A DNA stretch of 64,000 nucleotides from Robiginitomaculum sp. (GTDB lineage Bacteria; Pseudomonadota; Alphaproteobacteria; Caulobacterales; Maricaulaceae). The notes beneath the pieces are model-generated. The model searched no databases. It saw only the letters and a program-made list of their open reading frames with translations, and was not told the DNA's origin. The DNA is taken from assembly GCA_016765135.1 (NCBI GenBank), contig JAESQN010000020.1:1-64000 (forward strand), read 5' to 3'. This document shows positions 4,163 through 52,292 of this stretch, in pieces. Position 1 is the stretch's first letter. The number at the start of each line of letters is the position of its first letter. A program made the translations under genes and the position numbers.

Positions 4163-4608
4163 AAATGCTTCCAAACTTGCGAAAGCCCAACGGCATGGAA
4201 AATACCGAGCGCCAGTACAATTAAACTACTCCATACCGCAAATGCGTTCACCTGTTCAGGCATAACGAAATACATGGGCGCCAGAGCCAAACCGCGCAGG
4301 AGATACACAGCCGTAATCGCCAGCACGATCCATTTGACGAAGGGCAATGGCAAAGGCAGAGGCAAAGCATGGGCACTCCCCGCCCCGCCTGTGGAGGCAG
4401 CAAGAGCATAAGCCCCCATCACCATCAACGCCACCGCAATAAACCCGGTGACCAGCCCCGGATACCAAGACCCGTTCTCAGCCATCACCGCCATACGCTC
4501 CCCGGCCCCAAAAAACCGAAGCCAATCAGGCCCGCCAACAATAACCCCAATATGCAAAGCACTAGCAACAAGGCTCAACGAGCCACCGATCAACAGGTAT
4601 ATATTCAT
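4159..4608 (-). CDS. Small membrane protein, unknown function (first gene of TetR operon)
   Basis: 149 residues with four predicted membrane segments: the N-terminal one (IYLLIGGSLSLVASALHIGV), LVTGFIAVALMVMGAYALAA, VKWIVLAITAVYLLRG and WSSLIVLALGIFHAVG. The loop HIGVIVGGPDWLRFFGAGE is the most distinctive part. The ATG at 4608 is preceded by AAAGAGG at a good distance; the longer in-frame extension (to 4728) lacks a site and would overlap the promoter. It is translationally coupled to the next membrane protein gene. The function is not recognised. Confidence 0.75.
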   Translation of the reverse strand: MNIYLLIGGSLSLVASALHIGVIVGGPDWLRFFGAGERMAVMAENGSWYPGLVTGFIAVALMVMGAYALAASTGGAGSAHALPLPLPLPFVKWIVLAITAVYLLRGLALAPMYFVMPEQVNAFAVWSSLIVLALGIFHAVGLSQVWKHL

Positions 4609-4642
4609 GTTTTGTGTCCTCTTTGGGTTTTGTGTTGAGGAT

Positions 4643-4670
4643 AACATACCATACTTTATGGTTTGGTCAA
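4643..4670 (-). promoter_or_regulatory. Predicted promoter with palindromic operator for the TetR operon
   Basis: Read on the minus strand there is TTGACC (4670-4665), a 16-base spacer, then TATGTT (4648-4643). The perfect inverted repeat ACCATA-CTT-TATGGT (4648-4662) fills the spacer. It lies about 35 bases upstream of the first start codon (4608) of an operon ending in a TetR gene, the classic arrangement for autorepression. Assignment to that TetR is inference. Confidence 0.6.
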
Positions 4671-4788
4671 GGTGGGAGTTTTTTTGGGTGTGGGGTGTGG
4701 GGAGGAAAACAGACAACGCTATAATCATCCCGCGCCCTAGCGGGGTTACTGCTGAATTGGAGGCAGAAGCGGGCGTTAGAAAATGGAA

Positions 4789-10265: not shown

Positions 10266-10323
10266 TTTATTCCCCTCTAAGTTTGAAGCTTGTTTATGTT
10301 TTTTTTGTTTTGAATTGAAAAGT

Positions 10324-10358
10324 TATAAAAAAAGCGGCCCAATTCACGTAGCCGCTTT
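10324..10358 (-). terminator. Rho-independent terminator after tusA
   Basis: On the minus strand AAAGCGGC, a 12-base loop, then GCCGCTTTTTTT. It lies about 45 bases past the tusA stop and ends the dsrE-tusA unit. Confidence 0.88.
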
Positions 10359-10403
10359 TAAAGTCAAATGTTCTTACGGGTGTCTTGCAAAGAATTCATT
10401 TTC

Positions 10404-10646
10404 CTACACCACCCGTTCGATCAGGAACATATACACACCATCATCGATCCAACTTTTGAGCAATGTATTGCCAGTTGCCCGGCAAAAAGCTTCAAAATCT
10501 TTGACTGCGCCAGGGTCGCTTGAGGCTAGCTCAAGAACCTTACCATTCTCCATGCCTTTAAGTGCTTTTTTGGCCTTGAGTATAGGCAGTGGACAATTAA
10601 GCCCTTTGGTATCGAGTATTTCATCGGGTGTGATGCTATCAGACAT
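10404..10646 (-). CDS. tusA: TusA-family sulfurtransferase
   Basis: 80-residue cytoplasmic sulfur carrier of the TusA/SirA family. The TKGLNCPLPIL motif places the persulfide-carrying cysteine at Cys18 in the CPxP signature; the rest is the expected two-layer fold ending MFLIERVV. TusA proteins pass persulfide sulfur to tRNA thiolation or to sulfur-oxidation partners. It lies 28 bases after a DsrE-family gene on the same strand, a pairing typical of sulfur-trafficking loci. No rhodanese, Hdr or Dsr catalytic genes are nearby, so the downstream acceptor is unknown. Confidence 0.92.
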   Translation of the reverse strand: MSDSITPDEILDTKGLNCPLPILKAKKALKGMENGKVLELASSDPGAVKDFEAFCRATGNTLLKSWIDDGVYMFLIERVV

Positions 10647-36273: not shown

Positions 36274-37503
36274 TTATTTTACTGGCGTGCCTTCCAGATA
36301 CATACTTGTTTTTTTCTTACGGCGGTTTTCGCGGATGGGCGCAATGATTTTATTGCCGTAGACGCCTAGTGTTGGCAGCGGGTCGAACGGGTCGAAAATA
36401 GCGTGATGGCAACGGCAAGCGTCCCAGACGGCGCGGGCAAGGCGGGCCGCGAATTCCCCGGCATTGATTTTGCGGGCCTTCAGCAGGCTGGCCAACATGG
36501 TCAACTCGCCTTTCGTCCAGGTATATTCAACCCCTATTTTTAAATCCCACGGATCTGCGAGAGCCGTAACAGGCTCGTCGTGGGCAATTTGCAACCCCCA
36601 AACACTGTGGGTTAGACCAGCACATTCGGCGATGCGGGCCAAGCTGACGCGAGGGTTTAATTCCATGAATGTCACTGCGCCAGTTCCCGGCTCGACAATA
36701 TATTGCAAACAGCCCGTGAACGAGTAGTTCATTTCTTTGACGAAAGCCTCCACCGAAGCTTTGATGACCCGGTTTGGCTCGACCGTGATACCGTAGGTCG
36801 TATAGCCCGTACCGTCGTTTTCGTGGGTGCGGGCAGCGCATATCTCCACGGCCCCCAATAGCTTGCCGTCTTTGGCCGAATAAACCACACTATGTCGTAG
36901 CCCGGACAGGTATTTTTGCAACACCAGTTCAGGATGTTCTTTCGGCCAATGAGGAAATTGGGCTTCAAATGCCGCCTGATCCTGTAAGATGAGCGCTTTG
37001 CGGTCAAATATATAGGCGTCCACAATGGATGGTTTGATGATAAATGGATAGCCGATTTCTTCGATAGCAGCATGGATGTCTTCCATGCTGGTGATTTTTT
37101 TATAAGGCGCGATGGGGCCGTTGATGCGACTACACAGATCAAACATATGGGTTTTATCCGTAGCCGCCGCAATGATTTCGCGACTTGGCAGGATCAATTT
37201 TGCCTGGGTTTCAAGAAAACCCCGGTGGCGGGTGACAAAGCGGATACCAGCCTCATTGACCGGCTGGATGCTATCTATTTCGGGGTGGCCCAACAACCAG
37301 TTACGAATAGGCCCGTAAGGTTCGTCCGTGCCTGGCTCCAATGGTTCATGCCAAAAAGACGCGTCAATATAGCGCGACCATTCCAGATAATTGCTGTATA
37401 TAGACACGCCGGCGTGAACGCTATGCCCTGCCCTTGACAAGGCCCGGGCCACCGGAAACGCCATTCTGGCATCACCAATCAGCAATATGGTGTGCTGGGT
37501 CAT
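36274..37503 (-). CDS. ATP-grasp family ligase
   Basis: 409 residues. A Rossmann-like N-terminal part (ILLIGDARMAFPVARALSRAGH) precedes an ATP-grasp fold: YPFIIKPSIVDAYIF (nucleotide-binding lysine), VLQKYLSG, and the metal-binding FMELNPRVS near residue 285. The family joins a carboxylate to an amine or thiol using ATP. It resembles the carbamoyl-phosphate-synthase-like and PylC-like group. A C-terminal basic tail (RENRRKKKTSMYL) is unusual. It is downstream of and coupled by ATGA to a GNAT/FemAB-type gene; the acceptor is unknown. Confidence 0.85.
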   Translation of the reverse strand: MTQHTILLIGDARMAFPVARALSRAGHSVHAGVSIYSNYLEWSRYIDASFWHEPLEPGTDEPYGPIRNWLLGHPEIDSIQPVNEAGIRFVTRHRGFLETQAKLILPSREIIAAATDKTHMFDLCSRINGPIAPYKKITSMEDIHAAIEEIGYPFIIKPSIVDAYIFDRKALILQDQAAFEAQFPHWPKEHPELVLQKYLSGLRHSVVYSAKDGKLLGAVEICAARTHENDGTGYTTYGITVEPNRVIKASVEAFVKEMNYSFTGCLQYIVEPGTGAVTFMELNPRVSLARIAECAGLTHSVWGLQIAHDEPVTALADPWDLKIGVEYTWTKGELTMLASLLKARKINAGEFAARLARAVWDACRCHHAIFDPFDPLPTLGVYGNKIIAPIRENRRKKKTSMYLEGTPVK

Positions 37504-38663
37504 GATGCTTTGGACATGAAAGGAAAGGCGGCTTTGGAAAACCCCAAAACCCGCTGTTTCGTCGAGATTTCTGTCCCCAATATTTGATCGGTGCGTCTAC
37601 GCACGCGTTCTAGGTTTTTTGACATGTTATACGGTGTATTATCTTCCATATATGACCAAGTTTCGCCCAAAATACCGACAAGATTTATAACTTTTTCCTG
37701 GGCGTAGATCGGCCCTTGCGCGATAGGGGTTTGTGTATTGGTGAAATATTTTTTGTAATGTGCCTGACCGGTGCCAGCATCATAATATCTAAGCCCGTGT
37801 CCCGGCATGGCTTGCATAATTTTATGGGTCAGTAACATACCTGGCGAATATTTGCCAAACTCCGGATCGAATGCGACGAGCCATCCATGTAAGAGATTGC
37901 CGCTTTGTATGTTAAGTTCCGCCGCAACCAGTTTACCGTCTATGCATAAGGTTGAAAGTATAGTTTGAAGGTCGGGGCAAGCACCGCTGCGCAATTGCTC
38001 AAGCATTTGCTTGACCCATGATGGCCTTAGCACATCATGGTATTTGCTGCGGGCATATTGTTCCCTTTTCATTGTGATCAAACGTTTGAACATTTCGGGG
38101 CATTTGTCATCAAATGTAAAAACTATCTCACTATGTTCTTTCTCTAATTTCCGGCTCAACCGACCAAGTTTCTTGAAAAACTTTTTGTGGGTCTGCGTTT
38201 GTTGTGCCGCAAAACTCTCCCAGTCGTGTCGTAGATCAGAAATATTTGCATAAACGGTTTCAATTGGATTTACCTCAATCCGATCACTTAAAACCAGTCC
38301 AGAGGTTCTAAAGCCTGAAATATTGTGGTCGTGTAAATACTGGGCAATATCAACAGTTTCGCCAGCGCGTACTACGGGGCCATTGCGATCAGAAAACGGA
38401 ACACCTATGGCTCTCGCCCAGCCCCCCATGCCAATATGCAAGGGCCAATAGGCCAGCAACCCGTCTTGATCTTCTTCGACAGTAATGGATACATCACCCC
38501 GGACTTTGCCGATCAAGCGTGCGAAGTCGGGATCAAAAAAGGGACTGTCATAGGGCATTTGCTCATGACTATTGGGCATTTGCCCGAGGCGAAGCTCTCG
38601 GAATGACGCCCACATGTCGTCAGGCAAATCTGCCGAATTATAAACTTTGCGCGAAAACGGCAT
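37500..38663 (-). CDS. GNAT acetyltransferase of the BioF2/CelD-like (FemAB-related) type
   Basis: 387 residues. The core region (about 165-330) reads KKFFKKLGRLSRKLEKEH, AAELNIQSGNLLHGWLVAFDPEFGKYSPGMLLTHKIM and YYDAGTGQAHYKKYF, matching the Acetyltransf_6 group associated with cellulose and exopolysaccharide loci and peptidoglycan peptide transfer. It would transfer an acyl or aminoacyl group to a polymer or lipid. The downstream ATP-grasp gene overlaps by ATGA. Together with the convergent flippase unit the region looks like an envelope-modification cluster (inference). Confidence 0.83.
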   Translation of the reverse strand: MPFSRKVYNSADLPDDMWASFRELRLGQMPNSHEQMPYDSPFFDPDFARLIGKVRGDVSITVEEDQDGLLAYWPLHIGMGGWARAIGVPFSDRNGPVVRAGETVDIAQYLHDHNISGFRTSGLVLSDRIEVNPIETVYANISDLRHDWESFAAQQTQTHKKFFKKLGRLSRKLEKEHSEIVFTFDDKCPEMFKRLITMKREQYARSKYHDVLRPSWVKQMLEQLRSGACPDLQTILSTLCIDGKLVAAELNIQSGNLLHGWLVAFDPEFGKYSPGMLLTHKIMQAMPGHGLRYYDAGTGQAHYKKYFTNTQTPIAQGPIYAQEKVINLVGILGETWSYMEDNTPYNMSKNLERVRRRTDQILGTEISTKQRVLGFSKAAFPFMSKAS

Positions 38664-38790: not shown

Positions 38791-40377
38791 TTATGCCAAA
38801 TATGTTTGCGGGCAAAGCTTTTGATCTTTGAAGATACAGGCTTCTGATAGGGTTGCATCACAAAATGCACACAGAGCTTTCGGGTCGGGTTTGGTGATCT
38901 TGTCGTTTTGGATGCGAAAGCCTTTGTTTTTAAACCGCTTCAACGTGCGCGAAAACGTCTCCGGTGTCATATCCAGATATGACGCTATGGTGGATTTATC
39001 ATATGGCAAGGTGACCGCATTTCCCTTGCCACCACTTTGCTCCATACCCAGCTTGAGCAAAAACCAGCCGACCCGTTCTGTAGCCGTTTTCAACCTTGAA
39101 TGCTCGATTTGCTGTATCAAACCCTGTGACCGCATTGACAAACCACCGATCATACCCAAAGCTAAATTCCGGTTATCTGCAAGGCTTTGCCGGATAACCG
39201 GAGCGGGCATTGACAGCAATTGGGCATCTTGTACCACTTGGGCACTGACCAATGAGGGCGTGTTTAAAAACACGGACGCTTCCATGAGGCTGTCCCCGGC
39301 TGACAACATTTGCAAAACCGCCTCATCTCCGGCTTCCGTGCTTTTATAGAGCTTCACCCAGCCTCCCAAAACAAGATAATAGCGCGACAACATCTCGCCT
39401 TGCATAAACAGCAATTTGCCTTTTTCATAATCGAGAATATTGGCATGCTTCAACAACTCTGCCAAATCCTTGTCGTCAAGTTTCGAGAAAATGGGCAGGG
39501 TTTGGATCACCGCCATATGCTGGTCTAGCCTAGTTGGCGCTTTGACGATGACCGCCCCGGATGCAAGTCTGGAAACATGCGCGGGTTCTTTCATAACCAG
39601 ACCTTTAACAAGATCCGTTTCCGCGCTGCGCATGCGGTCAATTTTTCCCGTTAGAAGCTCGAACCAGGTGATAGGTGACAGAGCTTCCAGATCTTGCGTC
39701 CGTTTACTGTCCCTAAGCAAAGCATGGAGAGACTCCAGAACCTCCATAACATAGCCGTCAAGAACGGCTTCAACCTTGCGCTTTTGTCGCTTTGTTGCCA
39801 GGGACATAAATGCGCGCTTGTAGGCGGATTGTTCTTCTATGAGCGACAGCATACGCTCGGTAAATTCGCGATTTTTGAACACCTTGGAGCAAAACCCGTG
39901 CGCACCCCAGGCCCGTTCGCGCCCGACACGTTCTTTCCATTGCAGGAAATTGGAATAGGCGGTGACTTTCATTGGGTTGACATTTTCGACCCCAAAAGCA
40001 ATTTCGATATTCATCTCAATCGTCGGGTATATGAATATATAAGTGTAAGCATTAACGGCCTTGGAAAACTCGGTTGTGCCCTCTTGGATGTTTTCGCGTA
40101 ATTTGGTGAGGGCATTTTTGTTTTTGCGCACCGCATCCAGCTTCTTGCCCCATTCACTCGGCTGCTCCCCCGGCAGTTTTTCCAAAATACTTTCAAGTGC
40201 CGTGATGCTGTCATTCGTCGTACAATAGTGTGCGCGCAATTCATCTGCAAAAATTTCGCCGGAACTATCGACATATAATGCCGTCAGCCCGCGTTCAATT
40301 TGAAGCTGGTGTGTCAAGCCGCCTAATGCACGAAGTAGCAATATGGTTGCCGTTTCTTGCGGTACATCAATTTTCAT
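38791..40377 (-). CDS. NIT-domain / Crp-FNR hybrid transcription regulator with C-terminal four-cysteine tail
   Basis: 528 residues. Residues about 10-260 look like a nitrate- and nitrite-sensing NIT domain, with two helical halves each carrying its signature (QIERGLTALY at 26-35; KERVGRERAWGAHGF at 148-162). Residues about 295-405 are a cyclic-nucleotide-binding-type beta roll. Residues about 430-495 are a Crp-type HTH whose recognition helix TPETFSRTLKRF (471-482) has E473-xx-S476-R477, as FNR uses to read TTGAT. A C-terminal C-x2-C-x7-C-x7-C (Cys503, 506, 514, 522) could hold an Fe-S cluster or zinc. Divergent from narK1 with an FNR-type box between; it likely activates the nar genes. Confidence 0.88.
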   Translation of the reverse strand: MKIDVPQETATILLLRALGGLTHQLQIERGLTALYVDSSGEIFADELRAHYCTTNDSITALESILEKLPGEQPSEWGKKLDAVRKNKNALTKLRENIQEGTTEFSKAVNAYTYIFIYPTIEMNIEIAFGVENVNPMKVTAYSNFLQWKERVGRERAWGAHGFCSKVFKNREFTERMLSLIEEQSAYKRAFMSLATKRQKRKVEAVLDGYVMEVLESLHALLRDSKRTQDLEALSPITWFELLTGKIDRMRSAETDLVKGLVMKEPAHVSRLASGAVIVKAPTRLDQHMAVIQTLPIFSKLDDKDLAELLKHANILDYEKGKLLFMQGEMLSRYYLVLGGWVKLYKSTEAGDEAVLQMLSAGDSLMEASVFLNTPSLVSAQVVQDAQLLSMPAPVIRQSLADNRNLALGMIGGLSMRSQGLIQQIEHSRLKTATERVGWFLLKLGMEQSGGKGNAVTLPYDKSTIASYLDMTPETFSRTLKRFKNKGFRIQNDKITKPDPKALCAFCDATLSEACIFKDQKLCPQTYLA

Positions 40378-40445: not shown

Positions 40446-40459
40446 TTGATATAGGTCAA
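40446..40459 (+). promoter_or_regulatory. FNR-type operator upstream of narK1
   Basis: TTGATATAGGTCAA, a near-perfect match to the TTGAT-N4-ATCAA FNR consensus. Its centre is 32 bp before the -10-like CATAAA at 40482-40487, the geometry of a class II activator site at about -41.5. It lies in the shared region with the divergent regulator gene. Confidence 0.85.
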
Positions 40460-40532
40460 ACTTATTTCTCATCAGCTTTGGCATAAAGTGCGTGGCTCGC
40501 TGGGAGTCGATATTAAACCGGAGGGTGTTGAC

Positions 40533-42008
40533 ATGGAGCTTCAAAACAAAGCCACGAGACTTTGGGGGGACTTTTTACGCGTAGACAAAGTTCAAATCAG
40601 AACTTTCCACGTCACTTGGTTTACATTCTTTTTGTGTTTCTTTGCTTGGTTTGGTATTGCCCCTTTAATGGTGGTTGTGCGCGAAGAACTTAGCCTGACC
40701 AAAGAACAAATCGGTTGGACAATTATTGGCGCGGTTTCCGCCACGGTATTTGCCCGGGTATTGATCGGCTATTTTTGTGATCGGTACGGGCCGAGATTAA
40801 CGTATACTTGGTTGCTGCTTTTTGCCGCTTTTCCAGTTATGGGTATCGGGTTTGCCCACGATTTTACCACTTTTTTGATTTTTAGAATTTTAATCGGTGT
40901 TATCGGGGCCTCGTTCGTAATCACTCAATACCATACAATCAATATGTTCGCGCCAAATGTGGTCGGTCAAGCCCAAGCGACCAGTGCAGGCTGGGGTAAC
41001 CTTGGGGGTGGTGTCACGCAATTTATCATGCCTATGATTTTCTCGGTCTTTGTGGTCGGCTTTGGTGTCAATGAAGCCTTTGGTTGGCGCGCCTCTATGG
41101 TGGTGGCGGGCATGGCGATTTTTGTCATGGGTTTTGTCTATTATTTCTTCACACAGGATTCGCCGGACGGTTCGTACAAGGAATTGCGCGCCCAAGGCAA
41201 AATGCCGCCCGCAGGTCAAGCCAAAGGTAATTTTGCTGACGCCCTCAAAGATTACCGGGTTTGGCTGTTGTTTTTCATCTATGCGGCGTGTTTTGGTATT
41301 GAACTAACTATTCTGGGCACGTTGGCGATGTATATGTTTGATTATTTTGGCCTAAACTTGGTAACGGCAGGCCTTGTGGCTGCAAGTTTTGGTTTGATGA
41401 ACTTGTTTGCCAGAACCTTGGGCGGAATTTTCGGCGATAACTGCGCCTCGCTGTGGGGGCTTAAAGGCCGCGCCACATGGCTGTTTGTCGTCTTGTTCAT
41501 CGAAGGGCTGGCATTGATGCTGTTCTCGCAAATGAATGTGCTATTTCTCGCCATTCCGACCTTGTTACTGTTTTCTTTATTCGTGCAAATGTCAGAAGGC
41601 GCAACATTCTCAGTGGTTCCGTTTATTTCCAAAAAATCTTTGGGTGCGGTCGCAGGTGTCGTGGGCGCCGGCGGAAATGTCGGGGCGGTCACATTCGGAT
41701 TTTTGTTCAAGGGTGATATCAGTTGGGACACCGCCTATTTCATCTTGGGCGCATTTGTCACAATCGCGTCTTTCTCTGCCCTGTTCATTCGCTTTAGCAA
41801 GCAAGACGAAATTGAGGCCGAAGAGCGTTTTGACAAAGGTTATACCCAGCATAGAAAAGAAGCCGCCCGCAAGCATCTTGAGGTTTTAGGGATGAGCGAT
41901 GAGGATATCGACGATGTTAAAATCTTTGGCAGCCGCCAAGCCTATGCCTATAAACGCCTCGAAACACTGGGGGTTGATATGACAAACCTGAAATTGAAAA
42001 AAGACTAG
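40533..42008 (+). CDS. narK1: Nitrate/nitrite transporter NarK1-type (major facilitator)
   Basis: 491 residues from the ATG at 40533, preceded by GGAGGG. Twelve-helix MFS protein. Family motifs: FDR-type loop GYFCDRYGPRLTYTW after helix 2-3, and the nitrate signature region QAQATSAGWGNLGGGVTQFIMP. It probably imports nitrate with protons, as NarK1 homologues do, while NarK2 exchanges nitrate for nitrite. It begins the nitrate locus, 155 bases from the divergent regulator. A predicted terminator and a repeat copy follow it. Confidence 0.92.
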   Translation: MELQNKATRLWGDFLRVDKVQIRTFHVTWFTFFLCFFAWFGIAPLMVVVREELSLTKEQIGWTIIGAVSATVFARVLIGYFCDRYGPRLTYTWLLLFAAFPVMGIGFAHDFTTFLIFRILIGVIGASFVITQYHTINMFAPNVVGQAQATSAGWGNLGGGVTQFIMPMIFSVFVVGFGVNEAFGWRASMVVAGMAIFVMGFVYYFFTQDSPDGSYKELRAQGKMPPAGQAKGNFADALKDYRVWLLFFIYAACFGIELTILGTLAMYMFDYFGLNLVTAGLVAASFGLMNLFARTLGGIFGDNCASLWGLKGRATWLFVVLFIEGLALMLFSQMNVLFLAIPTLLLFSLFVQMSEGATFSVVPFISKKSLGAVAGVVGAGGNVGAVTFGFLFKGDISWDTAYFILGAFVTIASFSALFIRFSKQDEIEAEERFDKGYTQHRKEAARKHLEVLGMSDEDIDDVKIFGSRQAYAYKRLETLGVDMTNLKLKKD

Positions 42009-42266: not shown

Positions 42267-42280
42267 TTGATATAGGTCAA
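42267..42280 (+). promoter_or_regulatory. FNR-type operator upstream of narK2-narGHJI
   Basis: TTGATATAGGTCAA, identical over all 14 bases to the narK1 site. A CATAAA hexamer lies at 42303-42308, again 32 bp from centre to centre. The rest of the 42009-42366 gap holds the repeat and terminator listed separately. Confidence 0.87.
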
Positions 42281-42366
42281 ACATGGCTTCCCCAACTGCT
42301 GGCATAAAGGTGACGGCTTAATAGGCCGAAGCACGCGCCTATCATTTTGAAAAGGGAGAGCTGGAA

Positions 42367-43977
42367 ATGGCAAAAGACTTATATGACTGGGACCCAGAAG
42401 ACGAGGCCCAATGGAACGCAACCGGCAAGAAGATTGCCACGCGTAATTTATGGATTTCAATTCCGGCACTTTTGTGCGGCTTTGCAGTCTGGCTGTATTG
42501 GGGCATTATCACGGTACAGATGATCAATCTGGGTTATCCGTTTGAAAAATCCCAATTGTTCACTTTAGCGGCGATCGCCGGGCTGACAGGTGCAACCCTT
42601 CGCATTCCCTCGACCTTTTTTATTCGACTCGCGGGTGGCCGAAACACAATTTTCCTGACCACGGCTTTGTTAATCATTCCGGCGCTCGGCACCGGGTTTT
42701 TATTACAAAATCCTGATACGCCTCTCTGGCAGTTTCAGTTAATGGCGCTTTTATCCGGTATTGGCGGCGGTAACTTCTCGGCCTCTATGTCCAATATCAG
42801 TTTCTTTTATCCCAAAAAAGTTCAAGGATATTCTTTGGGTATGAATGCGGGTTTAGGTAATTTTGGTGTCACCACCATGCAAATCCTCATCCCGCTTGTG
42901 ATGACTGTTGGCATGTTCGGCGGCACGGCTCTGACCTTGAAAGCCACATCCGGTACTTTGATCGGTAAAATCCCGGCGGGCACAGATACTTATCTGCACA
43001 ATGCCGGGTTTATCTGGGCCGCGATTTTAATCCCCATCGTGATAGCGGTCTGGATTGGTATGAATAATATCAAGGCGGCCCATGTTTCGCCCAATATCAA
43101 ATCGCCCTTTGGTGCCTTTGCCAAAATTCTGGGCATGTTGGCCATTGGTTTTGTCACCGCAACATTTGGTCTGTGGTTGATGTTACCATCGGATGTGGGC
43201 GGCTCTGGTATCATGCTGTCCAAATGGATTGTCCTGCCCATAGTTGTCATTTTGACAGTTTTTGCGCTACGGATGATCCCCGGCACCATCGGCCAAAGCC
43301 TGAAGCACCAGTACAAGATTTTCAATAACAAGCACACATGGGCCATGACCATTATCTATACCATGACCTTTGGTTCTTTCATTGGTTATGCGGTGGCTTT
43401 CGGACTGGCGATCAAAGTGATTTTCGGTTTCCAGCATATCATGGGCGCTGACGGTATTATTGATCACAGTCTGGCAAACCCGGACGGGCCATCGGCTCTG
43501 ATGTGGGCATGGACGGGGCCGTTTATTGGCGCGCTGATCCGGCCGCTTGGCGGTATGGTTGCCGATAAAATTGGCGGTGCCAAAGTTACGCAAATCATAT
43601 CCTTTATCATGGTGGCTTCTGCTCTTGGCGTAGCTTATTTCATGAAGCAGGCTTATGTCTCACCGACACCCCAGGACTATTTTCTACCGTTCCTGATCTT
43701 GTTCTGGATACTGTTTGCCGCTACCGGCATTGGTAATGGCTCGACCTTTAAGACCATCGCGGTGGTGTTTGACAAAGAGCAAGCCGGGCCTGTGCTTGGC
43801 TGGACTGCGGCGATTGGTGCTTACGGCGCTTTCATCATCCCCAAGGTGTTCGGCGAGCAGATCAAAGCCACAACACCGGAATACGCACTGTACGGGTTCG
43901 CGGCATTTTATGTGTTGTGCATCATTATTAACTGGTGGTTTTATTTGCGGCCAAACGCATATGTGAAAAACCCTTAA
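42367..43977 (+). CDS. narK2: Nitrate/nitrite antiporter NarK2-type (major facilitator)
   Basis: 536 residues. Long NarK2-type MFS carrier; helices begin IPALLCGFAVWLYWGIITVQM. GIGGGNFSASMSNISFFYP and MNAGLGNFGVTTMQ are the two nitrate-signature motifs of the family. It exchanges external nitrate for internal nitrite. Ribosome site GGGAGAG. It leads the narGHJI operon; 68 bases separate it from narG, with a hairpin (43994-44013). In several proteobacteria narK1 and narK2 are fused, but here each has its own promoter. Confidence 0.93.
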   Translation: MAKDLYDWDPEDEAQWNATGKKIATRNLWISIPALLCGFAVWLYWGIITVQMINLGYPFEKSQLFTLAAIAGLTGATLRIPSTFFIRLAGGRNTIFLTTALLIIPALGTGFLLQNPDTPLWQFQLMALLSGIGGGNFSASMSNISFFYPKKVQGYSLGMNAGLGNFGVTTMQILIPLVMTVGMFGGTALTLKATSGTLIGKIPAGTDTYLHNAGFIWAAILIPIVIAVWIGMNNIKAAHVSPNIKSPFGAFAKILGMLAIGFVTATFGLWLMLPSDVGGSGIMLSKWIVLPIVVILTVFALRMIPGTIGQSLKHQYKIFNNKHTWAMTIIYTMTFGSFIGYAVAFGLAIKVIFGFQHIMGADGIIDHSLANPDGPSALMWAWTGPFIGALIRPLGGMVADKIGGAKVTQIISFIMVASALGVAYFMKQAYVSPTPQDYFLPFLILFWILFAATGIGNGSTFKTIAVVFDKEQAGPVLGWTAAIGAYGAFIIPKVFGEQIKATTPEYALYGFAAFYVLCIIINWWFYLRPNAYVKNP

Positions 43978-44045: not shown

Positions 44046-47000
44046 ATGGGTCATTTTATCGACAGACTGACATATTTTTCCAAGATCGACGGCAAATTTG
44101 CGGGTGGTCACGGGATCACGACACGCGAACACCGTGGCTGGGAGCGAGCTTATCGGGACCGTTGGGCCCATGATAAAATTGTGCGTTCGACCCACGGGGT
44201 TAACTGCACCGGTTCATGTTCATGGAAAATTTATGTCAAAAACGGACTTGTCACCTGGGAAACCCAGCAGACGGATTACCCGCGCACCCGCCCCGACATG
44301 CCAAATCATGAACCGCGTGGTTGCTCTCGCGGGGCAAGTTATTCGTGGTATTTATACTCCGCCGCCCGGCTGAAATTCCCGCTGGTGCGCTCACGGCTTT
44401 TGAAAACTTACCGGGCTGCCAAGCAGACACATCCCGACCCTGTCGATGCCTGGGCCAGTATTATGGACGACCCCATAAAGGTCAATGATTACAAGAAAAT
44501 GCGCGGGCTTGGCGGGTTTGTGCGCGGTGAATGGGACGAAATGAACGAGATCATTGCGGCGGCCAATATTTATACGGTCAAAACCTACGGCCCCGACCGG
44601 GTTGTTGGTTTCTCGCCAATCCCCGCTATGTCTATGGTGTCCTATGCGGCGGGCACACGGTATCTATCCTTGATGGGCGGAACATCTCTTAGCTTCTACG
44701 ATTGGTATTGCGACCTCCCCCCCGCTTCTCCCCAGGTTTGGGGGGAGCAGACGGACGTGCCGGAGTCTGCGGATTGGTTTAACTCGGGCTATATTATAGC
44801 CTGGGGTTCAAACGTGCCGCAGACTCGCACGCCCGATGCGCATTTTTTCACCGAAGTTCGCTATAAAGGCACCAAAACCGTAAGCGTCACACCGGATTAT
44901 TCCGAGGTCGCCAAGCTGACCGACATCTGGCTCAACCCGCGCCAAGGCACCGACGCGGCTATGGCTATGGCCATGGGCCATGTGGTGTTCAAGGAATTCC
45001 ATCTGGAGAAAAAATCCGAATATTTCGAAGATTATATCCGCAGCTATTCCGATATGCCCATGTTGGTGATGATGGAAAAAGAAGACGGATATTACAAGCC
45101 GGGCCGCACTTTGCGCGCTTCCGATTTTACCGGGAATTTGAAAATTAAAACGAGCGACAATCCCGACTGGTGTCCAACCGTTTACGACGAAACCTCCAAA
45201 TCCGTAGTTTCGCCCAACGGCACGGTCGGTTCGCGCTGGGGCAATAAAGGTAACTGGAATTTGGAAGCCAAAGACCGGGCCACTGGCAAAGACATCTGGG
45301 CGCAACTTTCCTGCATTGATGAGCGCGACGAAGTTCTGGGCGTGGCTTTCCCCTATTTTGCCAACCAGCCCCATGACCAAAAACTGTTCAACCATACTGA
45401 CCACGAAGACATTCAGGTGCGTAATGTACCTGTGCGCAAGGTTACACTGAAGGGCAAAAAGACCGCCTATGTGGCCACCGTCTATGATTTGATGGCAGCC
45501 AATTACGCCATTGATAGAGGCCTCGGCGGCGATAATGTTGCCAGCTCATACGATAATAATGTGCCTTACACCCCCGCCTGGCAAGAAGCCATTACCGGGG
45601 TTGATCGGGCCAAAGTCATTCAGGTGGCGAGAGAGTTCGCCGAAAACGCTGACAAAACTCGTGGCCGCTCCATGGTGATTTTGGGCGCGGCGATTAACCA
45701 CTGGTATCATATGGATATGATCTACCGAGGTATTATCAATTTACTGATGATGTGCGGCTGTATCGGGAAATCCGGCGGTGGTTGGGCCCATTATGTCGGG
45801 CAAGAAAAACTTAGACCGCAGACAGGCTGGATACCGCTGGCCTTTGCAACCGATTGGGCGCGCCCACCGCGCCAGATGAATTCCACCTCGTATTTTTACA
45901 ATCACTCAAGCCAATGGCGTTATGAAAAACTCGGTGTTGATGAAATCCTCTCCCCCCTCGCCGATAAAGAAAAATGGGCGGATTATTCGTTAATTGATTG
46001 CAATGTCCGCTCCGAACGTATGGGCTGGCTCCCCTCCTCGCCCCAGTTCAAAGACAACCCGCTCGGTTTTAAGGCCAAAGCTGGCGACAAGGATATCAAG
46101 CAATATGTGGTTGACCGGATTAAGTCCGGCGACTTGGAATTTGCTTGCGAAGATCCGGACCACGCAAATAACTATCCGCGCAATATGTTTGTCTGGCGCT
46201 CCAATATTTTGGGCAGTTCTGGCAAGGGCCATGAATATATCCTCAAACATTTACTCGGCGCATCCAACTCCCTCATGAGCGAAGATATTGGCGAAACTGG
46301 TGGGGCTAAACCATCCGAAGTCAAATGGCACGACGAAGCAGTTGAAGGCAAATTAGATCTGGTCATCACTCTTGATTTTCGCATGTCAACCACGGCGGTT
46401 TATTCGGACATCGTCCTGCCCGCCGCCACATGGTACGAGAAAAACGACCTCAACACCTCCGACATGCACCCGTTCATTCATCCGCTTTCAAGAGCCGTTG
46501 ACCCGGCTTGGGAGAGCCGTTCGGATTGGGATATTTTCAAAGGGCTTTCCAAGAAATTCTCAGAACTTTGCGACGGGCATTTGGGCGTTGAAGACGATTT
46601 GGTCAGCGTCCCGATCTTGCACGATACGCCCGGCGAAATTGGTCAGGCGTTCGGCGTCAAGGACTGGAAAAAAGGCGAGTGCGAACCCATACCCGGCAAG
46701 ACCATGCCAAACCTTGTGCCCGTGAAACGCGATTATCCAAACCTGCACAAAATGTTCACCTCTGTCGGGCCACTGCTTGAAAAACTCGGCAATGGCGGCA
46801 AGGGTATTGGCTGGAAAACCGGCGACGAAATTGATCTGCTGCGCGGGCTTAACAAAGTGGTGCGCGAAGAAGGTATCTCCAAGGGCCAGCCGAAACTGGA
46901 AACCGCCATTGATGCGTGCGAGGTCATTCTCAGCCTTGCCCCCGAGACCAATGGTCAAGTCGCGGTCAAGGCCTGGAAGGCTTTGGGCGAGTTTACCGGG

Positions 47001-47825
47001 CGCGAACATACCCATTTGGCTCTGCCCAAACAGGACGAGAAGATTCGCTTCCGGGACGTGCAGGCACAACCGCGTAAAATTATCTCCTCACCAACATGGT
47101 CAGGGCTTGAGGACGAACATGTCAGCTATAATGCCGGCTATACCAATGTCCATGAGCTAATCCCGTGGCGCACCTTGACGGGCCGCCAGCAATTTTATCA
47201 AGACCATGAATGGATGCGCGATTTTGGTGAGACATTATGCGTTTACAAACCGCCGATCTCGACCCGCACCATCAATGACGCGATTAAGACACGCGGTGAC
47301 AGCACCAAGCAAATTGCGCTGAACTGGATCACCCCGCACCAAAAATGGGGCATTCATTCGACCTATTCCGATAACCTCTTGATGTTGACCATGAACAGGG
47401 GCGGGCCAATCATTTGGATATCAGAAATCGACGCCGCCAAAATCGACGTGGTCGATAATGACTGGATCGAGGTCTATAATGTCAACGGCGCTATCTCGGC
47501 CCGCGCCGTGGTGTCCCAGCGTGTGCCAGAAGGCATGAGCATGATGTATCACGCCCAGGAAAAAACCATGAATACACCGGGCAATGAAGTCACTGGCAAG
47601 CGCGGCGGCATTCATAATTCCGTCACCAAAGCCGTGGTCAAGCCGACCCATATGATCGGCGGCTATGCGCAATTATCATGGGGCTTTAACTATTACGGCA
47701 CGGTTGGTTCCAACCGCGACGAATTTGTCATTGTCCGCAAGGTGAAGAAACTCGACTGGATGGAAGAGCCTTACGAAGAAGGCCAACCTATCAATATTGA
47801 TCTTAAGCAAGGAGGTGCAGAATGA
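44046..47825 (+). CDS. narG: Respiratory nitrate reductase, catalytic alpha subunit NarG
   Basis: 1259 residues, normal for NarG. It reduces nitrate to nitrite at a Mo-bis-MGD centre on the cytoplasmic side. The FS0 cluster ligands are His50, Cys54, Cys58 and Cys93 (STHGVNCTGSCSW; HEPRGCSRG). The Mo ligand Asp219 lies in SFYDWYCDLPPASPQ. No twin-arginine signal, as expected for the membrane-bound cytoplasm-facing enzyme. Ribosome site AGGAGA. The gene ends with an ATGA overlap with narH. Confidence 0.98.
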   Translation: MGHFIDRLTYFSKIDGKFAGGHGITTREHRGWERAYRDRWAHDKIVRSTHGVNCTGSCSWKIYVKNGLVTWETQQTDYPRTRPDMPNHEPRGCSRGASYSWYLYSAARLKFPLVRSRLLKTYRAAKQTHPDPVDAWASIMDDPIKVNDYKKMRGLGGFVRGEWDEMNEIIAAANIYTVKTYGPDRVVGFSPIPAMSMVSYAAGTRYLSLMGGTSLSFYDWYCDLPPASPQVWGEQTDVPESADWFNSGYIIAWGSNVPQTRTPDAHFFTEVRYKGTKTVSVTPDYSEVAKLTDIWLNPRQGTDAAMAMAMGHVVFKEFHLEKKSEYFEDYIRSYSDMPMLVMMEKEDGYYKPGRTLRASDFTGNLKIKTSDNPDWCPTVYDETSKSVVSPNGTVGSRWGNKGNWNLEAKDRATGKDIWAQLSCIDERDEVLGVAFPYFANQPHDQKLFNHTDHEDIQVRNVPVRKVTLKGKKTAYVATVYDLMAANYAIDRGLGGDNVASSYDNNVPYTPAWQEAITGVDRAKVIQVAREFAENADKTRGRSMVILGAAINHWYHMDMIYRGIINLLMMCGCIGKSGGGWAHYVGQEKLRPQTGWIPLAFATDWARPPRQMNSTSYFYNHSSQWRYEKLGVDEILSPLADKEKWADYSLIDCNVRSERMGWLPSSPQFKDNPLGFKAKAGDKDIKQYVVDRIKSGDLEFACEDPDHANNYPRNMFVWRSNILGSSGKGHEYILKHLLGASNSLMSEDIGETGGAKPSEVKWHDEAVEGKLDLVITLDFRMSTTAVYSDIVLPAATWYEKNDLNTSDMHPFIHPLSRAVDPAWESRSDWDIFKGLSKKFSELCDGHLGVEDDLVSVPILHDTPGEIGQAFGVKDWKKGECEPIPGKTMPNLVPVKRDYPNLHKMFTSVGPLLEKLGNGGKGIGWKTGDEIDLLRGLNKVVREEGISKGQPKLETAIDACEVILSLAPETNGQVAVKAWKALGEFTGREHTHLALPKQDEKIRFRDVQAQPRKIISSPTWSGLEDEHVSYNAGYTNVHELIPWRTLTGRQQFYQDHEWMRDFGETLCVYKPPISTRTINDAIKTRGDSTKQIALNWITPHQKWGIHSTYSDNLLMLTMNRGGPIIWISEIDAAKIDVVDNDWIEVYNVNGAISARAVVSQRVPEGMSMMYHAQEKTMNTPGNEVTGKRGGIHNSVTKAVVKPTHMIGGYAQLSWGFNYYGTVGSNRDEFVIVRKVKKLDWMEEPYEEGQPINIDLKQGGAE

Positions 47826-49450
47826 CTATACGTGCGCAAATAGGTATGGTGCTGAACCTGGATAAATGTATCGGGTGCCACACATGTTCAATCACTTGCA
47901 AAAACGTATGGACGTCCAGAGGCGGCGTGGAATATGCATGGTTTAACAATGTCGAGACCAAGCCGGGCCTTGGTTATCCGCGCAATTGGGAAGACCAGGA
48001 AGAATGGAAAGGCGGCTGGGAGCGGACGAAATCCGGCAAGCTAAAACCCAAGGCTGGCGGCAAAGTCGGGCTGTTGACGCAAATTTTTGCCAATCCTAAC
48101 CTACCGGAAATTGACGATTATTACGACCCATATACTTACGAATATGACCGCCTGAAATCCGCACCCGAAAGCAAAACCGTACCCACGGCCCGGATGAAAT
48201 CCGTCATTACCGGCAAGACTATGGATAAGCCCGATTGGGGTGTTAACTGGGAAGAACTGCTGGGCGGCGAATTTGAAAAGCGTCGCAGTGATTATAATTT
48301 CAAAGGCATTCAGGAGAAAATGTACGGCGAATTTGAAAATACATTTATGATGTATCTGCCGCGCCTGTGCGAGCATTGCCTCAACCCGTCTTGCGTGGCC
48401 TCCTGCCCGTCCGGCGCGATTTACAAACGCGAAGAAGACGGGATTGTCCTGATCGACCAAGACAAATGCCGGGGCTGGCGCATGTGTGTTTCGGGTTGCC
48501 CCTACAAGAAAATTTATTTCAACTGGCAGTCCGGAAAATCGGAAAAATGTACGTTCTGTTATCCGCGCATCGAGGCGGGCGAACCGACCGTTTGTTCCGA
48601 AACCTGTGTCGGACGCATCCGTTATCTGGGCGTGCTGCTCTATGATAGCGAACAGATTAAAGAAGCTGCATCTGTGCCGGACGAGAAAGATCTTTACCAA
48701 GCCCAGTGCGATTTATTTCTTGACCCCAACGACCCGGACGTCATCGCTCGCGCCAAGGCTGACGGTATTCCTGAAAGCTGGCTAAAGGCGGCGAAAGCAT
48801 CCCCCGTCTATAAAATGGCTATGGATTGGAAGATCGCATTTCCTTTGCATCCCGAGTACAGAACCCTGCCAATGGTCTGGTATGTACCGCCCCTGTCACC
48901 AATTCAATCTGTCCATGAAAACGGCCTGATGGAAAGCAAAGAAGGTACAAATGGTATGATCCCTGACGTGGAGAGCTTACGCATCCCCGTTAAATATCTG
49001 GCCAATCTACTCACCGCCGGGGACGAAGCGCCCGTGACCAATGCCCTTGAACGCATGCTGACCATGCGGGCCTATATGCGCAGCAAAACGGTGGACGGTG
49101 TGACCAATCTTGATATACTTGAAAAAGTCGGCATGACCGAATTTGAGATGGACGACATGTACCAAATGATGGCCATTGCCAATTATGAAGACCGGTTCGT
49201 CATCCCGACCAGTCATAAGGAATATGCCGGAGACGGGCCGTTCGACCAAGAAATCGCTTTCGCAACCCGATCCGAATGCGGCTTTAGTTTCGGCAATGGC
49301 TGTCACGGAGGGGAAGAACCTAAACGCTCTAATCTGTTCGGCACCCAGAGCCACGCCAACACTATGGACGGTGCATTTCGCGGCGGCAAAACACCGGGCG
49401 ACGGCGGCGTAAAAACCCTAAGTAAAGAAAATATGGGAGATAAACCATGA
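47822..49450 (+). CDS. narH: Nitrate reductase iron-sulfur beta subunit NarH
   Basis: 542 residues. It carries four Fe-S clusters that relay electrons from NarI haems to NarG. Cysteine groups: CIGCHTCSITCKNVW near the N-terminus, CEHCLNPSCVASCPSGA, then CRGWRMCVSGCPYKK, where Trp replaces a Cys as expected for the [3Fe-4S] cluster, and KCTFCYPRIEAGEPTVCSETC. Slightly longer than E. coli NarH at the C-terminus. It is coupled by ATGA overlaps on both sides. Confidence 0.98.
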   Translation: MTIRAQIGMVLNLDKCIGCHTCSITCKNVWTSRGGVEYAWFNNVETKPGLGYPRNWEDQEEWKGGWERTKSGKLKPKAGGKVGLLTQIFANPNLPEIDDYYDPYTYEYDRLKSAPESKTVPTARMKSVITGKTMDKPDWGVNWEELLGGEFEKRRSDYNFKGIQEKMYGEFENTFMMYLPRLCEHCLNPSCVASCPSGAIYKREEDGIVLIDQDKCRGWRMCVSGCPYKKIYFNWQSGKSEKCTFCYPRIEAGEPTVCSETCVGRIRYLGVLLYDSEQIKEAASVPDEKDLYQAQCDLFLDPNDPDVIARAKADGIPESWLKAAKASPVYKMAMDWKIAFPLHPEYRTLPMVWYVPPLSPIQSVHENGLMESKEGTNGMIPDVESLRIPVKYLANLLTAGDEAPVTNALERMLTMRAYMRSKTVDGVTNLDILEKVGMTEFEMDDMYQMMAIANYEDRFVIPTSHKEYAGDGPFDQEIAFATRSECGFSFGNGCHGGEEPKRSNLFGTQSHANTMDGAFRGGKTPGDGGVKTLSKENMGDKP

Positions 49451-50136
49451 GAAGCTTACGCGTATTATCAAGGCTGTTGGTTTATCCGAGCGCCGAAGTT
49501 CTCGGACAAATGGATGCGTTGAAAGACGTGTTGCGCGAGGATGGATTTTTGAAGGCTGGCACCTTGAAAAAGCTCACCGCTTTTATGGACGAATATGCAG
49601 GCACAGACCTCATGGACGCCCAGGAGACCTATGTAGAATTGTTCGATAGGGGCCGGGCGCATTGCTTGCATTTGTTCGAACATGTGCACGGCGAATCGCG
49701 GTTTCGCGGCCAGGCCATGATCGACCTTTCCGACCGCTACGCCGAAAAAGGTCTGGTGATCGGGGTCGGTGAATTGCCGGATTATCTGCCGGTGTTTCTG
49801 GAATTTATTTCCATTTGCGAGCCGGATGAGGGGCTTGAAACATTGGCCCAGGCCGCCCCCGTTATCGCTACCATTGGCGAAAAACTTAAACGGCAAAAAA
49901 GCGGTTACGCTAACGTGTTTAAGGCGATCACCGAATTGTCCGGCGCGAAATTAAAGGAGGCCGACATCAAGAAAGCCGCCGATGCAGCCCTGCCCAATAT
50001 CAAAACATTGGACGAGCTGGACGAAGAGTGGAAAGAGCCGGAAGCGTTTGGCGACGATTGCAATACCGCATGCAGTCCATCAAGCGCCATGCCGCTTGAG
50101 CCTGCAAGTCAGCATGCCAATCAAGGAGTAAACTGA
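49447..50136 (+). CDS. narJ: Nitrate reductase assembly chaperone NarJ
   Basis: 229 residues, all-helical TorD/NarJ family. The N-terminal RVLSRLLVYPSAEVL and the signature YVELFDRGRAHCLHLFEHVHGESRFRGQAM are diagnostic. It helps insert the molybdenum cofactor and the FS0 cluster into NarG. It starts by ATGA overlap within narH and ends on the first base of narI (TGATG). Confidence 0.97.
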   Translation: MRSLRVLSRLLVYPSAEVLGQMDALKDVLREDGFLKAGTLKKLTAFMDEYAGTDLMDAQETYVELFDRGRAHCLHLFEHVHGESRFRGQAMIDLSDRYAEKGLVIGVGELPDYLPVFLEFISICEPDEGLETLAQAAPVIATIGEKLKRQKSGYANVFKAITELSGAKLKEADIKKAADAALPNIKTLDELDEEWKEPEAFGDDCNTACSPSSAMPLEPASQHANQGVN

Positions 50137-50816
50137 TGAACGAGTTTCTTAACACATTTTTCTTTGGCATATTCCCCTACCTTGCCATTGGCACTATGAT
50201 TATCGGCAGCATCTTGCGTTATGACCGCGACCCCTATTCATGGAAGGCCGATTCGAGCCAACTCATGAGCCGCAAAGGTCTCAGGCTGGGTAGCAATCTG
50301 TTTCATGTGGGGATTATCTTTCTGTTCTTTGGCCATCTGGTGGGTCTTTTAACGCCCCACTGGGCTTACGCACCATTTATGACATCCGGGCAAAAACAGC
50401 TTCTGGCCATGGTCGCGGGCGGAATTTTCGGCAGCATAATGCTCGTCGGCTTGCTTATATTGATTGTGCGCCGTTTCGGCAATGCGCGGGTTAGTGCCAC
50501 GTCCAGCTTTTGGGACAAGGCGATTTTGATCCTGTTGTTAGCGCAGCTTATTTTGGGGCTTCTCACCATACCCCAATCAGCCAAACATATGGACGGTTCA
50601 TCCATGATCGAACTGGCCGCATGGGCGCAAAAAATCGTCACCTTTAGAGGCGGCGCGGCAGAGCATATCATAGGCCAAAACATCATTTTCAAACTGCACA
50701 TAGTTCTGGGCCTGACACTTTTCCTGATCCTGCCCTTCACAAGGCTGGTGCATATATTCAGCGCCCCGATTAAATATTTGTTCCGCACAGGTTATCAGAT
50801 TGTACGTAAGCGGTAG
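50136..50816 (+). CDS. narI: Nitrate reductase cytochrome b gamma subunit NarI
   Basis: 226 residues with five membrane helices. It oxidises quinol on the periplasmic side. The haem-ligating histidines are His57 and His67 (SNLFHVGIIFLFFGHLVG) and His188 and His206 (KLHIVLGL; RLVHIFSAP), in the same arrangement as E. coli. The operon ends here; a repeat copy and an FNR-type box follow before the porin gene. Confidence 0.97.
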   Translation: MNEFLNTFFFGIFPYLAIGTMIIGSILRYDRDPYSWKADSSQLMSRKGLRLGSNLFHVGIIFLFFGHLVGLLTPHWAYAPFMTSGQKQLLAMVAGGIFGSIMLVGLLILIVRRFGNARVSATSSFWDKAILILLLAQLILGLLTIPQSAKHMDGSSMIELAAWAQKIVTFRGGAAEHIIGQNIIFKLHIVLGLTLFLILPFTRLVHIFSAPIKYLFRTGYQIVRKR

Positions 50817-50996: not shown

Positions 50997-51059
50997 ATTT
51001 TCTCTCCTGCATAAGTGTATATTGGATACATCAAACATATATGCACAAAGGAAAAAACC

Positions 51060-52292
51060 ATGCGCACCTTACTCCTGACTTCTGTAGCAGCTTTTAGTCT
51101 TCTTGGCGCCAGTCAAGCATTTGCAGCCGACGAGGCGGAAACACTTGTCGATGCCATCACCAATGGCAAAACCAATATCAACTTTCGCCTTCGCAACGAA
51201 AATGTAAGCCAGGACGGCTTTGCTGAAAATGCCAACGCCCTGACTTTGCGCACTAGGCTTAAATATTCAACCGGTGTGTTCAAAGGTTTTGCCGCCGTTA
51301 TTGAGGTCGATAATGTATTGGCGCTGGATAATAATTATAACAGCACCATTAACGGACGTACTAACAGGCCCGTAGTTGCCGACCCTAAAATAACTGAAAT
51401 CAATCAGGCCTATCTGTCTTATACGGGTATTGCTAAAACAACCCTCAAAGCAGGCCGAGTGGCTTTAAATCTGGACAATCAACGCTTTATCGGCACGGTA
51501 GGTTGGCGGCAAAACGACCAGACCTATGATATGTTGGCGGGGATCGTTAAACCAAATGATGATTTGACGTTGACGGGCGGTTATGTGTGGAATGTCAACA
51601 GAATATTTGGTGATGATAATCCATTGGGCAATTTGGACACAAATACATTTATCTTAAACGGTAAATATACCGGATTTGATTTAGGTAATTTGACCGCTTA
51701 CGGCCTGTTTATTGATCTCAATGATACTGCCGTACTTGGTCTATCCAGCCAAACTCTAGGCATTCGTTTTGACGGCAAACAGAAACTTGGAAACGGTAAT
51801 GTTACGGCGCTCTATGAGTTGGAATTTGCCACGCAAAGCGATTATAAAGACAGTCCCCTTAATTATAACGCCCAATACTACCACATTATGGGCGGGTTGA
51901 GCGCAGGCGGATTTACGGGCAAAATTGGTTATGAGGTATTAGGTTCGGATAATGGTCTGGCCAGCTTCCAAACCCCGCTCGCCACCTTGCACAAATTCAA
52001 TGGCTGGGCCGATACATTTCTCAACACTCCTGCGGGTGGTCTTGAAGATTTCTACGGTTCATTATTTTATAAAGTCGGTGGCGACAGCAAACTTAAAGGT
52101 TTGACATTTGGTGCTATTTATCACGATTTTTCCGCAGATGTCGGTGGTAGTTACGGCAATGAAATAAATCTATTGATCAAGAAAAATTTCGGGAAAAACT
52201 TTTACGGGGCGTTGAAATATGCAAATTATAACGCCGATGGTTTTAGCGTCGATACAAAGAAAATGTGGGTGACCATCGGCGCGAATTATTGA
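51060..52292 (+). CDS. Outer-membrane porin, alginate-export-like family
   Basis: 410 residues from the ATG at 51060, preceded by AAGGAA; earlier in-frame codons lie in the promoter. Signal peptide LLTSVAAFSLLGASQAFAAD. The mature chain is rich in alternating beta-strands with NFRLRNENVSQDGFAENANALTLRTRL at its start and YGNEINLLIKKNFGKNFYGALKYANYNAD near the end, matching the Alginate_exp-type barrel used for several anions. It is placed right after narI with the same operator class, so nitrate or nitrite passage across the outer membrane is a reasonable inference. Confidence 0.83.
   Translation: MRTLLLTSVAAFSLLGASQAFAADEAETLVDAITNGKTNINFRLRNENVSQDGFAENANALTLRTRLKYSTGVFKGFAAVIEVDNVLALDNNYNSTINGRTNRPVVADPKITEINQAYLSYTGIAKTTLKAGRVALNLDNQRFIGTVGWRQNDQTYDMLAGIVKPNDDLTLTGGYVWNVNRIFGDDNPLGNLDTNTFILNGKYTGFDLGNLTAYGLFIDLNDTAVLGLSSQTLGIRFDGKQKLGNGNVTALYELEFATQSDYKDSPLNYNAQYYHIMGGLSAGGFTGKIGYEVLGSDNGLASFQTPLATLHKFNGWADTFLNTPAGGLEDFYGSLFYKVGGDSKLKGLTFGAIYHDFSADVGGSYGNEINLLIKKNFGKNFYGALKYANYNADGFSVDTKKMWVTIGANY

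Follow-up and report, generated by a model that had tools for sequence, protein, structure and literature searches.

The regulator gene and its domains

The window analysed here is a 64,000-nucleotide stretch of Robiginitomaculum sp. (Maricaulaceae; assembly GCA_016765135.1, contig JAESQN010000020.1, positions 1-64,000) in which a narK1-narK2-narGHJI cluster stands divergent from a gene for a regulator that joins an NIT domain, a Crp/FNR-type half and a C-terminal tail of four cysteines, the Cys4 tail (Table 1). The open reading frame (ORF) named by a first-pass annotation of this DNA is real: stops run throughout the plus strand of the interval and the regulator ORF sits on the minus strand. 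The domains which that annotation had read from the letters, namely an NIT domain, a beta-roll, a Crp-type helix-turn-helix (HTH) carrying E473-xx-S476-R477 and the cysteine motif, were all recovered at the residues it had given, including the NIT signatures QIERGLTALY and RVGRERAWG.

The match to the NIT model PF08376 stands far above its curated cut-off of 24.9 bits, and a profile scan of the whole genome placed the domain on the same bases as the Pfam search of the regulator. Both the cyclic nucleotide-type (cNMP) beta-roll and the Crp-type HTH exceed their Pfam cut-offs, which places the regulator in the Crp/FNR superfamily. No ANTAR domain was matched at E 0.01 with Pfam, the C-terminal half consisting of cNMP and HTH_Crp_2. 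Further, the N-terminal C-x2-C-x5+-C motif of FNR is absent from the sequence, and the FNR model NF008365 gives 39.7 bits against a cut-off of 228. No NCBIfam model passes its cut-off. FtrB scores highest, but the regulator is not a member of that family as NF006901 and NF050815 match the Crp half with 129.4 and 115.4 bits, below their cut-offs of 211 and 300. Among solved structures searched by sequence, the NIT half has a single match, NasR (4akk, E 4e-10), while the Crp half matches DNR, two Ruegeria proteins and others.

Table 1. The regulator gene, its domains, the FNR-type sites and the nar genes in the window
Feature	Position	Strand	Evidence and remarks
NIT-Crp/FNR-Cys4 regulator gene	38791..40377	-	ATG start, 528 amino acids; ORF, Pfam, homologues
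NIT domain, residues 21-260, all-helical	39598..40317	-	PF08376 126.4 bits; NasR fold match
Linker of low confidence, about residues 264-281	39535..39588	-	pLDDT <50 at 264-279; alignment variable there
cNMP-type beta-roll (cNMP_binding), residues 316-401	39175..39432	-	PF00027 56.8 bits, above Pfam cut-off
Crp-type HTH (HTH_Crp_2), residues 434-504, including E473-xx-SR	38866..39078	-	PF13545 49.2 bits, above cut-off
Cys4 tail, residues 503-522, C-x2-C-x7-C-x7-C (Cys503/506/514/522), C-terminal end of the protein	38812..38871	-	Sequence
FNR-type site TTGATATAGGTCAA upstream of narK1, common to the divergent regulator gene	40446..40459	.	Sequence scan
Second FNR-type site, identical TTGATATAGGTCAA, upstream of narK2	42267..42280	.	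Sequence scan
Candidate -10 element CATAAA, narK1 promoter	40482..40487	+	Puts site at -41.5
Candidate -10 element CATAAA, narK2 promoter	42303..42308	+	Same spacing, -41.5
narK1	40533..42008	+	TIGR00886 290.7 bits, below 311.7 cut-off; likely ATG 40533 after GGAGGG
narK2	42367..43977	+	NF011608 291.8 bits, TIGR00886 259.5 bits, both below cut-off
narG	44046..47825	+	TIGR01580 2182 bits
narH	47822..49450	+	PF13247, PF14711
narJ	49447..50136	+	PF02613
narI	50136..50816	+	PF02665

Predicted structures agree with this division. For the full-length model, built from a 23-row alignment (mean predicted local distance difference test score, pLDDT, 77.9; predicted template modelling score, pTM, 0.60), the best fold match was NasR 4akk (Z 28.5, root-mean-square deviation 3.1 over 259 aligned residues), followed by holo-FNR (Z 22.1, 224 residues); plain Foldseek on this model ranked Crp-type chains first. 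A model of the Crp half and tail (27 rows, pLDDT 89.3) placed holo-FNR rows first at Z 24.6-25.0, with CRP 3mzh nearly tied at 23.9. The NIT domain is thus modelled with the all-helical fold of NasR.

Residue conservation was scored over 23 rows of fused proteins, that is, those with NIT joined to the Crp/FNR half, including the window protein and leaving out the partial L020 and L123. The first-pass annotation had made conservation of the tail in homologues a check on its reading, and Cys503, Cys506, Cys514 and Cys522 are invariant in all 23. E473, S476 and R477 are likewise invariant in 23/23 fused rows and in 27/27 rows of the Crp-half alignment. The second tail cysteine is tyrosine in one of those 27 rows (L050), and the spacing of the fourth differs in L079 and L080. 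Within the NIT domain, R155 is present in 23/23 rows, E154 in 22/23 and R29 in all 22 that extend to that position. E154 and R155 align with E175 and R176 of NasR, described as predicted nitrate-pocket residues of which E175, when changed to alanine, abolished RNA binding (PMC7496416). Two further candidates were set aside: Cys163 of the NIT domain as a metal-site ligand, which is invariant in the nine nearest rows yet found in 17/23 over all fused rows, and residue 218 as the counterpart of the H/R pocket partner of NasR, which is not invariant in fused rows and hence was not used.

Distribution of the fusion and the Cys-tail clade

Searches in overlapping samples recovered the fused gene from 15 of 61 relatives, from 2 of 385 genomes of the class, from 15 of 299 genomes of the order (one copy being partial) and from 3 of 398 genomes of the phylum. 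The carriers fall under six family and seven genus codes, none outside the class of the window, and those with names are Robiginitomaculum and Parvularculaceae metagenome-assembled genomes. Three same-phylum matches outside the class (G764, G869 and G933; E 1e-30, from the 398-genome phylum sample) align over the Crp part but do not extend over the NIT body. A narK homologue adjoins the fused gene elsewhere wherever the view extended beyond the 5' side of the regulator, a side that is out of view in L003/L011, L123 and L040/L086. On plasmids, none of 667 matching records spans 80% of the protein. Matches to an NIT-domain protein came from a Salmonella plasmid of 30.6 kb and from small plasmids, about 3.8 kb in size, of Salmonella and Escherichia fergusonii (plasmid records H71, H75-H78).

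The Cys4 tail is not confined to the fusion: unfused Crp proteins of about 250 amino acids with the same tail are present in other alphaproteobacteria, and these rule out the tail as a consequence of NIT fusion. Twelve such loci were examined. Regulators at L069, L071, L074 and L076, plus the broken L081, are divergent from narK-narGHJI; L075 adjoins ubiV with narK and narG within the same 20 kb; L073 adjoins ccoN; L079 adjoins ccoN/fixP/fixG-type genes; and L080 lies beside ORFs that match in size those next to L079 (assigned by size, not by profile). The L079 and L080 genes (4380-5147 and 9733-10479 of their loci), from two genomes of one genus, encode a paralogue that is 57% identical to the Crp half, carries the tail, lacks NIT and lies by cbb3 oxidase-type genes.

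With the tail columns left out of the tree, a single branch set the tail proteins, fused and unfused, apart; its support was 78/96 for all 87 rows and 99/99 for the 81 rows that remained once six long branches had been removed. On these sequences the Cys tail marks an unnamed alphaproteobacterial Crp/FNR clade that also holds unfused regulators. The cbb3-linked L079 and L080 are placed within the fused proteins, which points to a probable loss of NIT with retention of the tail. A single origin of the fusion without loss was rejected, as the constraint of all fused rows to one clade gave an approximately unbiased test value (p-AU) of 0.0045, which is only indicative because the group was named after the first tree was seen.

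Nitrate sensing at alphaproteobacterial nar operons has long been ascribed to NarR. Five proteins in the NarR position (Paracoccus, Tistrella, Methylovirgula, Thioclava plasmids) have 232-236 amino acids and neither NIT nor tail; NarR rows lie in a separate 11-row clade with support of 100/100, whereas the fused rows belong to the Cys-tail clade. The tree therefore rules out that the regulator is a canonical NarR with an extra domain.

We also observed unfused Crp/FNR proteins of the class with a three-cysteine C-terminal tail, C-x2-C-x4 to x6-C (L060, L061, L128, L132, L134 and L141), which are closer to the Bacillus Fnr pattern and lie outside the Cys4 clade. At L076 (17608-19476), an NIT-HAMP-MCP chemoreceptor gene directly follows narI, the nar regulator there being of the unfused tail type. 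The unfused tail regulator of L081 (17610-18113 and upstream; genome G178), beside narK-narGHJI, is split over two frames, and is likely a broken gene or an assembly error.

FNR-type sites at the nar promoters

The two 14-bp sites proposed by the first-pass annotation are real and identical, and they lie upstream of narK1 and narK2 in the geometry of an activator (Table 1). TTGAYNTARRTCAA occurs twice in the whole 2.87-Mb genome, both times at this locus, against zero for the reversed control. In the 450 bases upstream of the regulator gene, the palindrome TTGAY-N4-RTCAA is present for 20 of 22 fused genes, against 0.07 expected from shuffles, and for 7 of 10 unfused tail genes, against 0.03. 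When 27 loci were compared, the best resemblance to a -10 element was obtained with the site centred at -41.5, at 3.44 of 6 bases versus 0.93-2.63 at 24 other spacings.

The sites also bear on how far the regulator may reach. A looser pattern, TTGATNNNNRTCAA, occurs at 15 distinct places in the genome of the window (21 raw hits, forward and reverse, vs 4 in the reversed control). Twelve of the 13 places besides the two in the window are inside or at the edge of mechanically called ORFs and one (L111) is between ORFs; none provides a second convincing target, so we prefer a local regulon to a global one. A search for TTGAYNTAGGTCAA in 15 fused genomes gave 21 distinct places, of which 17 are no more than about 3.3 kb from the fused gene; one further place is at the cbb3 paralogue, another adjoins an FNR gene (G617), and two are elsewhere. 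The pattern is absent from three of these 15 genomes, and raw hits number 24 vs 7 in the reversed control. Two of ten genomes without the fusion contain TTGAYNTAGGTCAA, at one place each.

The ORF tool starts narK1 at GTG 40488, compared with the likely ATG listed in Table 1. A short 5'-terminal hairpin (GGCTC-loop-GAGTC) at 40494-40508 begins at the predicted +1 of narK1, in agreement with the start-site prediction based on -41.5. A stem at the first bases of the leader is predicted in 7 of 11 orthologous leaders, and this modelled hairpin is a possible mRNA-stabilising element.

A proposed two-signal activator and its rivals

The domain make-up, folds, clade, invariant cysteines, neighbourhood, and conserved sites with their spacing were all observed computationally, and the identity and target of the regulator are well supported: it is very probably a dedicated narK/nar regulator. 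We propose that it would act in the cytoplasm as a one-component activator, with the narK1 and narK2-narGHJI promoters of this locus as targets; the Crp/FNR half would bind TTGAY-N4-RTCAA palindromes at -41.5 and activate as FNR does at class II promoters. Since the TTGATATAGGTCAA site is also upstream of its own divergent gene, the regulator may autoregulate. On binding cytoplasmic nitrate or nitrite, the NasR-like NIT domain would free the DNA-binding half from inhibition. The tail cysteines would coordinate a metal centre, for which an oxygen-labile iron-sulfur (Fe-S) cluster as in Bacillus Fnr is the most likely candidate, and full activation would require nitrate and low oxygen together (AND logic). 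We infer nitrate sensing from the NIT family, the NasR fold and the conserved pocket, and oxygen or redox sensing from tail conservation, the neighbours of unfused members and the Bacillus precedent. The neighbours of the unfused tail regulators, along with the NIT-less paralogue beside cbb3 genes, suggest that NIT accompanies nitrate and the tail accompanies low oxygen. Taken whole, we lean slightly towards this two-signal mechanism. We give roughly even weight to the broader proposal of a two-input AND gate in one polypeptide, with NIT for nitrate/nitrite and a Cys4 Fe-S centre for oxygen, that would alone do the work of NarXL and FNR of E. coli, within an undescribed tail-defined clade whose inputs nature would already have separated (tail only at nar, cco and ubi; tail plus NIT at narK).

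Replacement of both NarXL and FNR at this locus had been suggested by the first-pass annotation, and the gene content of the window's genome (2.87 Mb, 99.56% complete) is in keeping with it. A profile scan found one NIT protein there, the regulator itself, and no PilJ/NarX-type sensor domain; no match to the FNR model reaches its cut-off. Two regulators pass the HTH_Crp_2 cut-off, the other having 221 amino acids and three scattered cysteines without a cluster motif. However, an FNR with the N-terminal motif C-x2-C-x7-C is present in 5 of 19 fused genomes (G003, G006, G012, G617 and G979), so replacement of FNR is not general. In the remaining 14, no FNR-model match reaches 48 bits, compared with 93-133 for true FNRs, although not every match was translated.

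Several further points weigh against the two-signal mechanism. The packing of NIT on the Crp half is uncertain in the full-length model because linker residues 264-279 have pLDDT <50, and the pTM of 0.60 likewise leaves the arrangement uncertain. The candidate -10 element CATAAA fits only 4 of 6 bases. A perfect site is missing within 450 bases upstream of fused L021 and L083 and unfused L072, L073 and L075; L021 has a site with one mismatch, and the sites of L083 precede its second and third transporter genes. Three of the 12 unfused tail loci (L070, L072 and L082; genomes G271, G277 and G165) have no respiratory neighbour among the genes profiled. The NIT domain of Pseudomonas aeruginosa PA4520 is reported to bind neither nitrate nor nitrite (PMC6381276). 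Finally, the tail motif C-x2-C-x7-C-x7-C differs from that described for Bacillus subtilis and B. cereus Fnr, which lacks NIT and holds an O2-labile [4Fe-4S] cluster through C-terminal C-x2-C-x4-C plus Asp (PMC3520743). The same Bacillus proteins make incomplete the view, taken in the first-pass annotation, that FNR carries its cluster cysteines at the N-terminus.

This difference in spacing makes a structural zinc site possible, and the rival that survives best holds that NIT senses nitrate or nitrite and drives the activator while the tail is a zinc knuckle after the winged helix with no sensing role. Such a knuckle would suit four near-regular cysteines within a short segment, a tail modelled in the Crp half with fair confidence without ligand (pLDDT blocks of 84 and 76, down to 52 at the end) and the presence of the tail in regulators without NIT. 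We nonetheless consider it rather unlikely, as unfused tail regulators are mostly beside anaerobic or microaerobic respiration genes and a rigid Zn(Cys)4 would poorly tolerate the shifted fourth cysteine of L079 and L080 or the tyrosine of L050. An Fe-S cluster in the tail that responds not to oxygen but to nitric oxide or redox state, giving feedback from nitrate reduction, has a precedent in ArnR of Corynebacterium, which is reported to regulate narKGHJI, bind [4Fe-4S] and respond to nitric oxide but not directly to O2 (PMC12343034); paralogues by cbb3 oxidase genes suit oxygen better, however, and we regard this as improbable. Least probable of all is that the NIT domain does not bind nitrate, whether through loss or from the outset, and mediates dimerisation or protein contacts in a regulator that answers oxygen alone or represses: the loss of NIT in tail paralogues on the tree would fit, but R155, E154 and R29 are conserved, NIT is retained wherever the fused gene sits at narK, and the -41.5 spacing is typical of an activator.

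Each part of the preferred two-signal activator has a precedent of its own, in NasR for one-component control by NIT, NarR for a nitrate-responsive Crp/FNR protein at narK, and Bacillus Fnr for the C-terminal cluster in a Crp/FNR-type protein. NasR of Klebsiella oxytoca, an NIT-ANTAR antiterminator, is similarly a cytoplasmic one-component protein with an N-terminal NIT of the same predicted fold, and its pocket pair E175/R176 has a counterpart in E154/R155. The output of NasR is the RNA-binding ANTAR domain, without a Cys tail, and serves nitrate assimilation rather than respiration; the regulator has a DNA-binding Crp/FNR half in place of ANTAR. It shares with FNR of E. coli and Aliivibrio fischeri the fold of the Crp half, E-xx-SR and TTGAT half-sites, but has an NIT domain at the end where FNR has its N-terminal cysteine motif. 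NarR of Paracoccus and other Alphaproteobacteria is also of Crp/FNR type and divergent from narK-narGHJI, and is described as responsive to nitrate/nitrite and as taking the place of NarXL in Alphaproteobacteria (PMC8139620, PMC3541799); NIT and the Cys tail set the regulator apart from it. Among open-licence papers we found no NIT-Crp protein, and no earlier description of the combination of NIT, Crp/FNR and Cys tail or of the tail-defined clade.

Should the two-signal mechanism hold, one protein would combine the control of nitrate respiration by nitrate and by oxygen that E. coli divides between a two-component system and FNR. The locus position of NarR is here held by an unrelated Crp/FNR clade with a recognisable nitrate-sensing module, so that nitrate reading could be tested by domain swaps and point variants, with the unfused relatives and the cbb3-linked paralogue as ready-made controls. 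For applications, the regulator could provide a compact, genetically encoded sensor that converts nitrate into a DNA output. Filtering by length can hide such fused proteins; one published CRP/FNR network is described as retaining only proteins of 190-280 residues (PMC9603854).

At the edges of the nar locus, two minus-strand genes downstream of the regulator (36274-38663) have no evident tie to nitrate, one giving weak carbamoyl-phosphate synthase/biotin carboxylase-type matches and the other being without a confident model. A porin-like gene follows narI at 51015-52292, matching Alginate_exp with 30.5 bits and an Opr porin model with 30.1 bits, the latter below cut-off.
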